Source: Bacteroidia bacterium
GTDB lineage: Bacteria > Bacteroidota > Bacteroidia > B-17B0 > Aurantibacillaceae
Reading direction: 5' to 3'
Assembly (NCBI GenBank): GCA_016787785.1
Contig: JAEUTO010000006.1
Coordinates: 186,001 to 250,000, forward strand
DNA: 64,000 bases
The notes below the pieces were generated by a model. It was given only the letters and a program-made list of their open reading frames with translations, ran no database searches and was not told the DNA's origin. Position 1 is the first letter of the stretch. Each line of letters opens with the position of its first letter. Positions 7,103-24,724 of this stretch are shown in pieces. The translations under genes and the position numbers were made by a program.

Positions 7103-7173
7103 TTATCCTAATCACGAATTTAAGAATATTAACCTAAAAATAGACGAATTTTTTGTCTAATCCTTACATTTTT

Positions 7174-7971
7174 TTAATCGTTTTTATACTTACGAAAAAC
7201 GTCCTTTTGTAGATCTTGATTTTCGCCTTTTTTGTGATATGGGATCTTTTTTCTCCAGAGTTTCAGGGCATTCCAGTGAATTAAAGTAATAATTTTGAGG
7301 GTAATAAATGGAAAACGGATACTGTACCAAAATAAATTCCCATTATTTATAGGCTTTTTAAGCCCGGTTAAAGTGCTTATAAAAATGCGTTCTCCACCTT
7401 TGAACGTGTCTATCTTATTATTTAGTTTTTCTGTTGGAATTACCAGATTGAAATCAAAATTGGCATCATGGTCCATAAAAGGCGATACATAAAAATACTT
7501 TGCAGTATTTAAATGGAAAGTATTTTCGCTTAAATTTTCTTTGGATAAAAGATAGGGCTTCATTTCTCCAAATGTATTTCCAACTTCTGCAATACAACAA
7601 ACAGGCTGATCTTTTTCATCAAAACAATAATAAAAAGAAACCGGATTAAAATTATAACCCAACACATTTAAATTGGTAAGTAACATTATTTTTGTTGGAG
7701 CAGGTGTAACACTATTCTTCTGCAAATAGTCTAAAATATGCTGTTTGGTTGTTTTGCTTTTATCGGGGTTCTCAATTGGCAATTGTAAATGCTCATTATC
7801 CCTGAAGCTAAAAAAATTAAATCTATTATGACTGAAGAATAACAGTTTCTTTCTTAATTGTTCTATTTCATCCAGATCAATGTAAAACATAAATACGTTG
7901 TAATGAAACCTATGTGATGCAGGCTTCATGCGGTTATGCATTACAGTGGCTTTATATAAACAACTATTCAC
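7174..7971 (-). CDS. DUF1365 family protein
   Basis: 265 residues; recognised by the N-terminal NSCLYKATVMHNRMKPASHR and FMFYIDLDE segments, NPVSFYYCFDEKDQPVCCIA, and FYVSPFMDHDANFDF. The family has no settled biochemical function but is found almost always beside CFA-type methyltransferases and COG2907 flavoproteins, as here. A GTG start at 7971 is favoured because the conserved NSCLY segment follows at once. Its start codon abuts the left array of CGAAT repeats. It probably acts with the neighbouring methyltransferase in acyl-chain modification (inference from context). Confidence 0.85.
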   Translation of the reverse strand: MNSCLYKATVMHNRMKPASHRFHYNVFMFYIDLDEIEQLRKKLLFFSHNRFNFFSFRDNEHLQLPIENPDKSKTTKQHILDYLQKNSVTPAPTKIMLLTNLNVLGYNFNPVSFYYCFDEKDQPVCCIAEVGNTFGEMKPYLLSKENLSENTFHLNTAKYFYVSPFMDHDANFDFNLVIPTEKLNNKIDTFKGGERIFISTLTGLKKPINNGNLFWYSIRFPFITLKIITLIHWNALKLWRKKIPYHKKGENQDLQKDVFRKYKND

Positions 7972-7973
7972 TT

Positions 7974-8025
7974 CGAATTACGAATAAAATACGAATTTAC
8001 GAATCAATACCCTATTTTCACGAAT
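7974..8025. repeat. Left CGAAT array flanking the GxxExxY gene
   Basis: Five copies of CGAAT, mostly within ACGAATT, begin at 7974, 7981, 7992, 8000 and 8021. The last copy runs into the stop codon of the GxxExxY gene. The array is in inverted orientation to the ATTCG array at 8467-8533. Two further single CGAAT copies lie at 7115 and 7145 in the next gap. Confidence 0.6.
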
Positions 8026-8426
8026 TATCCTTGTTCAATATTAACAAGTCGTTTACTAATTATCCCTTTTGATGAAAAATTTATAAGAAGAGCTAACTGT
8101 AATTTACTAGATAATAGGTATTGATTGACCTGATCGATATTAGATTTTGCAAAGCGATCATTCTTTTTTAATTCAATGATTATTTTGTCTTCTACTAAAA
8201 AGTCCAGATATAGTTTGCCAACTAACTCCCCCTTGAATTTTAATGGTGCATAGAACTGTTCTTTAAAGGTTAATCCAGCATTTTTGAAGGCAATTGCCAT
8301 AGCTTTTTGATAATATTTCTCAGCGTGACCAAATCCTAACTCATTAAATACTTCAAATGCACAGCCAATTATTTTATAGCTTAATTCAGGATAAACAAGG
8401 TCGTTTCTTTTAAGTTTGCCTTCCAT
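8025..8426 (-). CDS. GxxExxY protein (PD-(D/E)XK nuclease-like)
   Basis: 133 residues. The signature G-H-A-E-K-Y-Y sits in FEVFNELGFGHAEKYYQKAM, and LYLDFLVEDKIIIELKKND gives the D and ExK pattern of the PD-(D/E)XK nuclease fold. Family length (about 125-135) is complete, so it is not truncated. Its function is unknown in the literature I know of. It has no evident link to lipid metabolism although it sits inside the lipid cluster, and arrays of CGAAT/ATTCG lie on both sides in inverted orientation. The start is the ATG at 8426. It may be a small mobile or selfish cassette (inference). Confidence 0.85.
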   Translation of the reverse strand: MEGKLKRNDLVYPELSYKIIGCAFEVFNELGFGHAEKYYQKAMAIAFKNAGLTFKEQFYAPLKFKGELVGKLYLDFLVEDKIIIELKKNDRFAKSNIDQVNQYLLSSKLQLALLINFSSKGIISKRLVNIEQG

Positions 8427-8466
8427 AATACTAAGATATTATTTAATACTATTCCTAGTTGCTACG

Positions 8467-8533
8467 ATTCGTAGATTCGCATCAATTCGTTTTCGCAGTT
8501 ATGCACCCGGATTCGTATATTCGTACTAATTCG
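8467..8533. repeat. Right ATTCG array flanking the GxxExxY gene
   Basis: Six copies of ATTCG begin at 8467, 8475, 8485, 8511, 8519 and 8529. Reverse-complemented, the outer end (CTACGAATTAG, then TACGAATATACGAAT) resembles the outer end of the left array (CTTCGAATTACGAATA). The array enters the 3' end of the flavoprotein gene and supplies its last codons and stop (ACG AAT TAG). Confidence 0.6.
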
Positions 8534-9785
8534 TAGTTAGTAGTTTTTTACAAAGTTCCACTGCACTCGCATATGCGTCTTCATGAAATCCATATTTAAA
8601 ATAGCTTCCACAGTAATATAATGGACCTTTCTCATTTAAACTTTGAAGTTCTTTTTGCGCATTTATTGCCGGCACATCAAATAAAGGATGTTCGTAATCG
8701 ATCTCTTTTAAAATTTTTGCTTTATCCACAGTTCCGGGAATTGCGTTTATAGAAACAAAATAATTTTTCTTTTTAGAAACACCTTGTAAACTGTTCATCC
8801 AATAAATAGTGGTTGGAATCTGTTCTCCATTACGTTCTTCTATCCTGTAATTCCAACTGCTCCAGGTTTTCTTATTTTTCGGCATTGTCGTTTCATCTGT
8901 ATGAACGGTTGCAATGTTCTTTTGATATTTAAACGGACTCAATAACCTTTTTTCTTCCGCGGTAGGTTGGTCTAACAGTTTTAAAGTCTCGTCGGCATGC
9001 GACGCAAAAATAACTTTATCAAATTCTTTTGATGTACCATCTTTTAAAAATACAGTAACCTTACCGTTTTCATTTCGCGTTACTTTTACAGCACCGTTAT
9101 TAGTATGGATCCTGTCTTTAAAAGGTTTAATTAATATTTCGCGATAAGCCTGGCTTCCATTTTCTAAAGTATACCATTGGTGTTGTGTGTTCAATCCCAA
9201 AAAGCCGTGGTTCTTAAAAAATCGTATAAGCGCAACAGCAGGGAAATCTAACATTTTGTCCATTGGCGTGCTCCAAACGGCAGAACTCATTGGTACTAAA
9301 TATTTCCAAAGCATTTCTTCACTGAAATTAAATTCCTTAATGTATTGTGCTAAAGAATGATTCTCATATTTTGGATCATCTAAAATTTCCACACTTATTT
9401 TATTAAAGCGTGTGATCTCCATCAGCATTTTAATATACCCAATATTAAAAATATTTTTACGTTGAGCAAATAATCCGTTCAGTCCAGATCCACAGTATTC
9501 AAGGCCACTTGCGGTGTGTTGCACACTAAATGACATGTCTGTTTTTTTTATCGGCGCTTTTATTTCATCAAATAGTTTGCAAAGATTTGGGTAGGTCTTA
9601 AAATTAAAGACCATAAAGCCGGTATCCATAAAAATCTTTTCGCCATCTTCATTAGTAGAAAACGTATTAGTGTGTCCGCCTACATAATTATTTTGCTCAT
9701 ATAAGGTAATATCATATTTTTTTTGAAGCAAGTGCCCGCAGCCCATGCCCGCAATACCTGTTCCTATTATGGCTAGTGTTTGCAT
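8526..9785 (-). CDS. FAD-dependent amine-oxidase-like flavoprotein (COG2907)
   Basis: 419 residues with an N-terminal Rossmann dinucleotide-binding motif (IGTGIAGMGCGHLL, then YEQNNYVGGHTNTF) typical of flavin amine oxidase/protoporphyrinogen oxidase-like proteins. LNTQHQWYTLENGSQAYREI and the C-terminal YYCGSYFKYGFHEDA identify the COG2907 subgroup. These proteins are regularly encoded with DUF1365 and CFA-type methyltransferases and are thought to oxidise or reduce a methylated acyl chain. The start ATG overlaps the stop of the upstream hydrolase gene by one base, which implies translational coupling. Its last codons come from the ATTCG repeat array. Confidence 0.88.
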   Translation of the reverse strand: MQTLAIIGTGIAGMGCGHLLQKKYDITLYEQNNYVGGHTNTFSTNEDGEKIFMDTGFMVFNFKTYPNLCKLFDEIKAPIKKTDMSFSVQHTASGLEYCGSGLNGLFAQRKNIFNIGYIKMLMEITRFNKISVEILDDPKYENHSLAQYIKEFNFSEEMLWKYLVPMSSAVWSTPMDKMLDFPAVALIRFFKNHGFLGLNTQHQWYTLENGSQAYREILIKPFKDRIHTNNGAVKVTRNENGKVTVFLKDGTSKEFDKVIFASHADETLKLLDQPTAEEKRLLSPFKYQKNIATVHTDETTMPKNKKTWSSWNYRIEERNGEQIPTTIYWMNSLQGVSKKKNYFVSINAIPGTVDKAKILKEIDYEHPLFDVPAINAQKELQSLNEKGPLYYCGSYFKYGFHEDAYASAVELCKKLLTTN

Positions 9786-23671: not shown

Positions 23672-24724
23672 ATGATCGAGAATAAAGTAATTGTTGGCAT
23701 CTCCCAGGGAGACATAAATGGAATAGGTTTAGAAGTTGTTTTAAAAACTTTAATGGAGCCGGGTATTGCAGATATTTGCACACCTGTTCTATTCAGTTCG
23801 CAAAAAACAGTTTCGTATTACAGAAAAGTTTTAGGGCTAGAAGAATTTAGTTTTAATCCTATGCGCGATTTTTCGCAACTAAGTGCAAGAAAAGTAAATG
23901 TTTTTGTCTGTTACGAGGAAGAGGTAAATATTGAAATGGGAAAAGCAACAGATGTGAGCGGAAAATATGCATTCATCTCCCTTGAAAAGGCAAGTATGGC
24001 ACTATTTGATAAACATATTGACGCACTTGTTACTGCCCCCATTAATAAAAGTAACATTCAAAGCGAAGACTTTAAATTTGTTGGTCATACAGAATATCTA
24101 GGATCAAAGTTTTCTGGTGACCCATTAATGTTGATGTGTTCTGAAAGCGGCTTGCGCATTGCAGTTGCAACAGGTCATGTGCCTTTAAAAGATGTTGCTT
24201 CAAAATTGACTATCGACGGTGTGTCGAATAAAATAATTCATCTAAACGAATCAATGATCAAAGATTTTGGTATTCGTAAGCCGAAAATTGCGGTGCTTGG
24301 GCTAAATCCTCACGCGGGTGACGGTGGTGCGATCGGCAACGAAGATAAAGAGATCATTATTCCGGCCATCGAAAAAACAAAAACCAACGGTTTGGTATAT
24401 GGTCCATATTCTGCCGATGGTTTTTTTGGGAATGGTACTTACAAACAATTTGATGCTGTTTTAGCAATGTATCACGATCAGGGATTGATCCCATTTAAAA
24501 CCATTGCTTTTAATGAAGGTGTAAATTTTACCGCCGGCTTAAACGTAGTGAGAACAAGCCCTGACCATGGCACCGGATACGATATTGCCGGAAAAAATAA
24601 AGCCAATGAGCAGTCGTTTAAAAAGGCGCTTTATGCTGCCATTGATATTTTTAAGAACCGCAAATTATATGCAGAAATAACTGAAAATCCACTGCATATC
24701 GGCACAATTAAGAAAGAGAGATAA
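23672..24724 (+). CDS. pdxA: 4-hydroxythreonine-4-phosphate dehydrogenase PdxA
   Basis: 350 residues. NAD-dependent oxidation of 4-phosphohydroxy-L-threonine in de novo pyridoxal phosphate synthesis (DXP-dependent route). Segments ISQGDINGIGLEV, TAPINKSNI, FVGHTEYL, GLNPHAGDGG, MYHDQGLIP and RTSPDHGTGYDIAGK contain the three metal-binding histidines and the substrate-binding residues. It starts three bases after the amidohydrolase stop codon and ends at a strong terminator, so it closes that operon. Confidence 0.96.
   Translation: MIENKVIVGISQGDINGIGLEVVLKTLMEPGIADICTPVLFSSQKTVSYYRKVLGLEEFSFNPMRDFSQLSARKVNVFVCYEEEVNIEMGKATDVSGKYAFISLEKASMALFDKHIDALVTAPINKSNIQSEDFKFVGHTEYLGSKFSGDPLMLMCSESGLRIAVATGHVPLKDVASKLTIDGVSNKIIHLNESMIKDFGIRKPKIAVLGLNPHAGDGGAIGNEDKEIIIPAIEKTKTNGLVYGPYSADGFFGNGTYKQFDAVLAMYHDQGLIPFKTIAFNEGVNFTAGLNVVRTSPDHGTGYDIAGKNKANEQSFKKALYAAIDIFKNRKLYAEITENPLHIGTIKKER

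Follow-up and report, generated by a model that had tools for sequence, protein, structure and literature searches.

A predicted PD-(D/E)XK nuclease gene of the GxxExxY family lies between inverted repeat arrays in an insertion element with gene-less hairpin relatives

Introduction

REP and REPIN palindromes together with their RAYT (TnpAREP) helpers have been described as 'REPtrons' (PMC3116915, PMC8266576), and TIRtrons are also known (PMC3733652). Close orthologues of RAYTs are nearly all found in the same place, and the helper is vertically inherited (PMC3116915, PMC8266576). In Coxiella, the intervening sequence (IVS) has terminal inverted repeats and, ahead of S23p, tandem GACAGAT heptamers, and RNase III excises it (PMC4990558).

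The GxxExxY family (TIGR04256 / PF13366) is widespread and has no assigned function. Neither a function nor a repeat association was found for it in open-licence PMC papers, the two that mention it by name dealing with other matters, although an earlier description elsewhere is possible. Here, a GxxExxY gene flanked by inverted arrays is compared with these systems. The window analysed is a stretch of 64,000 nucleotides from a Bacteroidia bacterium (contig JAEUTO010000006.1, positions 186,001 to 250,000).

Results

The element in the window

The GxxExxY gene (8025..8426, reverse strand) lies between a flavin amine oxidase (flavoprotein) gene (8526..9785) and a DUF1365 gene (7174..7971), both on the same strand. 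The neighbours are a CMAS methyltransferase, DUF1365, flavin amine oxidase, an alpha/beta hydrolase, a second CMAS-type methyltransferase and DUF1295, and the lipid-operon setting proposed in the preliminary description is therefore a fair reading. From comparison with six empty and five other filled junctions, the whole inserted element spans 7971..8536 (about 566 bp, reverse strand); the span of 7971-8537 first proposed is that of the whole element, and the coding sequence proper is 8025..8426. The upstream arm (8467..8533, reverse strand) consists of six units of TACGAAT type, grouped three and three and oriented toward the gene, and the downstream arm (7974..8025, forward strand) of five CGAAT units, inverted with respect to the upstream arm. 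The five CGAAT copies reported on the left of the gene (7974, 7981, 7992, 8000 and 8021) and the six ATTCG copies on its right (8467, 8475, 8485, 8511, 8519 and 8529) were all recovered, and the single CGAAT copies at 7115 and 7145 stand alone and form no array.

As had been noticed, the arrays hold the stop codons of the flavoprotein and GxxExxY genes and abut the start of the DUF1365 gene. The flavoprotein stop, a new one given by the insertion, is the TAG in ACGAATTAG, now within the upstream arm. The stop of the GxxExxY gene is provided by the downstream arm, its TAA overlapping ATTCG, and the DUF1365 gene now starts at the array edge with a GTG made of the last element base and the TG of the ancestral ATG. 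On the gene strand, the element termini are CTACGAAT (8536-8529) and ATTCGAAG (7978-7971), and these CTACGAA...TTCGTAG termini are seen again in gene-less copies.

There is no overall enrichment of ATTCG across the whole window (127 found vs 140 expected). Its copies are clustered, with up to 6 on the same strand within 75 bp, a number that never exceeded 4 in 500 dinucleotide shuffles. No inverted pair of ATTCG clusters of at least 4 copies each was seen in the 500 shuffles, and chance clustering of ATTCG/CGAAT is rejected (0/500). Flanking inverted repeats at p<0.02 were found for two of the 53 window ORFs tested, the GxxExxY gene being one of the two. The two other candidate arrays of the window (24225-24276 and 44234) were rejected on reading, neither being an inverted array like this element. 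A known Rfam RNA was likewise rejected (the sole match is sub-threshold and outside the element), as was a phage origin (no PHROGs match). Folded as RNA, the gene-bearing element is barely better than shuffles (z -1.5).

The orthologous junction in related genomes

Of the 40 genomes of the genus, 19 yielded a DUF1365 gene, and the junction upstream of it was read in each. Empty sites, which the preliminary description had suggested seeking in relatives, were found in six genomes, where the flavoprotein stop touches the DUF1365 start (about TATAATGAAC). In six others (G000, the genome of the window, G031, G010, G009, G025 and G011) the junction is filled with a GxxExxY gene and ACGAAT/ATTCGT arrays; the G009 copy is a pseudogene. 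Since six related genomes have the tight stop/start junction and six carry the element, the GxxExxY element of the window is an insertion, and its early description as a small insertion with imperfect terminal inverted repeats and a nuclease-like gene holds. The element entered the ancestral flavoprotein-stop/DUF1365-start junction at TAA^TGAA. A target-site duplication is not apparent there, although the flanks of the empty sites are too diverged to exclude one of 2 bp.

Three genomes (G003, G013 and G001) instead carry a four-helix 23S_rRNA_IVP-family gene (1.3e-14 for the G003 gene) between inverted AAAATGG-type arms, and G021 and G024 have inverted arrays there that enclose no gene and are built on other motifs. 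In G033 the gap is short and free of arrays, and the G007 junction is not comparable.

The GxxExxY protein

The 133-aa protein of the window is a full-length GxxExxY / PDDEXK_3 member, matching PF13366 (1.6e-31, 109.5 bits vs a cut-off of 22) and TIGR04256 (1.6e-31, 109.1 bits vs a cut-off of 35, profile positions 1-116 of 116) above the curated cut-offs. In an alignment of 46 diverse rows, G31, G33, E36, Y39, D75, E85, K87 and Q99 are invariant and Y103 is nearly so. The QxxxY motif is a feature of RecB/Cas4-type PD-(D/E)XK nucleases. With D75, E85, K87 and QxxxY (Q99-Y103), the protein keeps an intact predicted PD-(D/E)XK (Cas4/RecB-like) active site.

An AlphaFold model of the protein (pLDDT 89.4, pTM 0.81) matches LHK-Exo and lambda exonuclease with Foldseek, and Cas4 SSO0001 with VIA-align (Z 9.6, 4.5 A, 103 residues); R.SwaI, Hjc and EcoRV rank below. 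The predicted fold appears firmer than the nuclease subfamily, which is less certain because most Z values are middling. By sequence, no relative of solved structure was found at E up to 1. A known defence protein was considered and rejected, the only matches being weak ones to Cas4b and PDC-M08B (E 0.005-0.013).

Between syntenic GxxExxY copies dN/dS is 0.02-0.11, with dS saturated in several pairs, a range that indicates strong purifying selection. Nearly all pairs of at least 80% identity are syntenic, so inheritance of the gene is mostly in place. A recent transposition was not detected, as non-syntenic gene-bearing copies are less than 80% identical.

Arms at other GxxExxY loci

The inverted repeat was scored between the two 300-bp flanks of each locus, with the outer chunks of the same loci as a control. 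Over 93 loci of the genus, the best inverted repeat has a median of 16.0, vs 9.5 in outer chunks (p=4e-20), and 71 of the 93 pass p<0.02 against shuffles, for which the floor of the p-values is 0.01. As motif families are shared between loci, cross-locus pairs are unsuitable as a null, and the comparison was made with outer chunks, shuffles and window ORFs. The same motif class is found on both sides in 82 of the 93 loci, and 11 have no paired arms by the rule used. Thus, the expectation that other GxxExxY genes would be flanked by an inverted motif is borne out at nearly all genus loci, with several motif classes in place of one. The arms are tandem units of about 7 bases, spaced 1-4 bases, of the classes CACATAG, CACTAAG, CACAGAG, CACAAAG, CGCAAAG, TACGAAT, CACGAAT/CACTAAT, CGCAGAT, CATATAAG and TATGAT, and their orientation is strongly biased (514 units toward the gene, 21 away).

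The architecture extends beyond the genus. At 81 further loci, 80 of them from public genomes and one from an IMG/VR contig, the median is 15.0 vs 9.0 (p=2e-16), with 62 loci at p<0.05; these cover Bacteroidota, Nostoc/Anabaena/Tolypothrix and a planctomycete MAG. Arms were not seen at the acidobacterial (L230) and Spartobacteria (L248) members.

Several individual loci may be recorded here. A broken GxxExxY copy in the genome of the window (L003, G000:C6:228517-228850) is still flanked by CACATAG arms. An unusually long CACGAAT-type run, with 17 CGAAT in about 520 bp, lies upstream of the GxxExxY gene of L033 (G014:C11). On the viral-catalogue contig L265 (IMGVR_UViG_3300032770_000220), inverted CACAAAG/CACGAAG arms flank a GxxExxY gene, a possible route of transfer; a scan of viral contigs for close relatives found none.

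Arms and gene change together

Mapped on a tree of 87 GxxExxY proteins, 76 of which have a motif class, the motif class changes 18 times, vs a mean of 53.2 and a minimum of 46 in 2000 label shuffles. TACGAAT, as an assigned class, is confined to the clade of the window protein. At one syntenic site both arms have changed, being CACTAAG in L021, CACAAAG in L019 and CGCAAAG in L018. Judged from these sequence comparisons, it is well established that the arms and the GxxExxY gene evolve as a unit. Arm/gene covariation could come from linkage alone, as both lie within one element and the arms would then follow the gene. However, linkage leaves the in-step change of several units unaccounted for, and this suggests recognition or homogenisation.

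Gene-less hairpins

The genome of the window has gene-less ATTCG arrays at C4:470313, C6:129506 and C10:156013, each spanning about 77-81 bp and ending near CTACGAA/TTCGTAG. It also has 26 CACATAG arms (0 for a control pattern), which make up one gene-bearing pair, its arms 449 bp apart, and at least 6 pairs of about 125-166 bp that enclose no gene. These two hairpin families are those of the two GxxExxY genes that are intact in this genome. Folded as DNA, gene-less hairpins reach z -3.8 to -7.1 vs shuffles.

The CACATAG hairpins (L274-L285) have, by eye and uncounted, a common inner stem-loop that varies in sequence yet stays paired (TTTTCTTCGC/GCGAAGAAAA, ATTTCATCGC/GCGATGAAAT, ATTTTATTCGC/GCGAATAAAAT and ATTCTTCGCC/GGCGAAGAAT). 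Such paired changes suggest selection on structure.

Co-occurrence of arms and genes was assessed across the 40 genomes, with gene presence set by hand from the tree and two arms subtracted per gene-bearing copy. Surplus arms go with the gene of their clade for CACATAG (MWU p=0.003), CACTAAG (0.0009), CACKAAT (4e-5) and TACGAAT (0.0007), and within genomes the families having a gene outrank those lacking one in 17 of 22 (Wilcoxon p=0.001); these statistics ignore kinship, and the shared ancestry of the genomes inflates them. Many arms are found without a cognate gene, as with 35 CACKAAT arms in G017 and 14 CACATAG arms in G031. In the preliminary description, arrays occurring without the gene were regarded as a sign that the two are unrelated. 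Gene-less arrays do occur, but the unrelatedness does not follow: because cognate hairpins co-occur with the matching gene, they extend the insertion reading rather than refute it.

Two intergenic spots in the genome of the window (L007, G000:C6:128.0-131.0 kb) were compared with G003, G009, G013 and G031, and at each spot the family of inverted-array hairpin differs between close relatives, as if these spots were repeatedly re-colonised by hairpin families. In L310 (G013:C1:581521-581941) and L308 (G009:C56), repeats containing TTCGACAAGCTCA/CACCCTGAGCTTGTCGAAGG flank a GIY-YIG gene (PF01541, 7e-19 in L310) at the place occupied by a CACATAG hairpin in the genome of the window. GIY-YIG is possibly a third type of helper. 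The 23S_rRNA_IVP/TIGR02436 four-helix genes of the genus (L155-L184, L108, L110 and L120) are likewise bordered by inverted arms of short units (median 13.5 vs 9.0, p=3e-10).

Discussion

On balance, the locus is probably part of a helper-plus-palindrome system that resembles RAYT/REPIN and has a Cas4/RecB-like nuclease as its helper, which would recognise its cognate arrays and drive their spread. The feature in the window would be a palindromic insertion element in its gene-bearing form, with the nuclease gene between inverted arrays of about 7-base units. The nuclease would recognise hairpins formed by the cognate arrays, acting on and cutting single-stranded or extruded DNA. Through this cutting, short gene-less hairpins may be copied to new places between genes, stop/start junctions among them, and the gene-bearing copy would be copied likewise, but rarely. 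The analysis directly supports the insertion, the joint evolution of arms and gene, the family-wide architecture, the cognate gene-less hairpins that go with the gene, and the conserved catalytic residues; recognition and cutting of the arrays by the nuclease, and the spread of arrays that these would drive, are what we infer.

The main rival is an IVS-like RNA element related to the 23S rRNA IVS with S23p, in which the host tolerates the insertion since the RNA stem formed by its arms is trimmed out of the mRNA or prevents interference, the protein being cargo or else binding its own RNA. It draws on the 23S_rRNA_IVP-family gene that, flanked by inverted arrays, fills this junction in three genomes, on the inverted arms of IVP genes throughout the genus, and on the Coxiella IVS with its terminal-repeat stem, its heptamers before S23p and its excision by RNase III (PMC4990558). 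However, the modelled fold of GxxExxY is that of a DNA-type PD-(D/E)XK nuclease, the arms are often distant from the gene, and the folding of the gene-bearing transcript is unremarkable, so that we consider the RNA element unlikely. That gene-less hairpins outnumber gene-bearing copies, and that IVP and GIY-YIG genes also lie between inverted arrays at the same hot spots, would fit arrays that are independent hairpin repeats moved by another enzyme, with GxxExxY hitchhiking in composite copies and being useful to the host, as the strong purifying selection would allow. Composite copies would not yield a match of subfamily and motif, whereas the motif class tracks the GxxExxY phylogeny and cognate gene and arm families co-occur, within genomes too; the one transposase type sought, Y1 (PF01797), was not found in the genome of the window. 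Hitchhiking is accordingly judged quite improbable.

Vertical inheritance and the low dN/dS (0.02-0.11) are also what an ordinary host gene would show, GxxExxY then being a repair nuclease that controls its own expression through binding to the arrays, with the dispersed arrays as its regulon. The empty orthologous junctions and the replacement by other elements fit insertion better than a regulon, and the presence of gene-less hairpins varies between close relatives, pointing again to insertions; a host gene of this kind seems very unlikely.

A broader reading is put forward tentatively and may well not hold: that GxxExxY, IVP four-helix and GIY-YIG genes belong to a class of transposase-free mobile elements in which small nucleases, or small proteins that bind nucleic acids, each spread their own inverted short-unit array hairpins through bacterial genomes and compete for the same hot spots between genes, with the 23S rRNA IVS as one branch. 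That such a class would be previously unrecognised is equally tentative. The GxxExxY family acquires a testable role through its association with empty sites, gene-less hairpins and inverted arrays of a cognate motif. If the favoured nuclease-run system is real, the helper-plus-palindrome arrangement of RAYTs has evolved also with an unrelated nuclease; if the class is real, the long-puzzling rRNA intervening sequences are joined to it, and many intergenic hairpins in Bacteroidota and Cyanobacteria are accounted for.

Comparison with known systems

IS elements and MITEs resemble the window element in their terminal inverted repeats, short gene-less derivatives and empty sites. However, the window element has no transposase and no target-site duplication was seen, and its arms are made of repeated units. 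The 23S rRNA IVS is also close in form, being of about 0.4-0.6 kb with one small gene and inverted-repeat ends, sporadic in occurrence, and having tandem heptamers beside the gene; IVP-family genes occur at the same junction in relatives. It differs in location, an rRNA gene as opposed to a protein operon (between the flavoprotein and DUF1365 genes), and in its protein, the four-helix S23p as opposed to a predicted nuclease.

REP/RAYT systems differ from GxxExxY in that the RAYT helper is a Y1/HUH tyrosine transposase rather than a PD-(D/E)XK nuclease, and in that REPs are GTAG-tagged palindromes, whereas the GxxExxY arms are tandem units of about 7 bases. The element does not belong among RAYT/REPIN systems because its helper is not a Y1 transposase and no match to Y1_Tnp (PF01797) was found in the genome of the window. 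By analogy, RAYT/REPIN nevertheless appears to be the closest working analogue: in both, a single-gene locus lies between its own palindromic repeats (paired, same-class motifs at 82 of the 93 GxxExxY loci), many gene-less inverted doublets (hairpins) are dispersed between genes, and the helper is vertically inherited in few copies, with helper subfamilies having different repeats.
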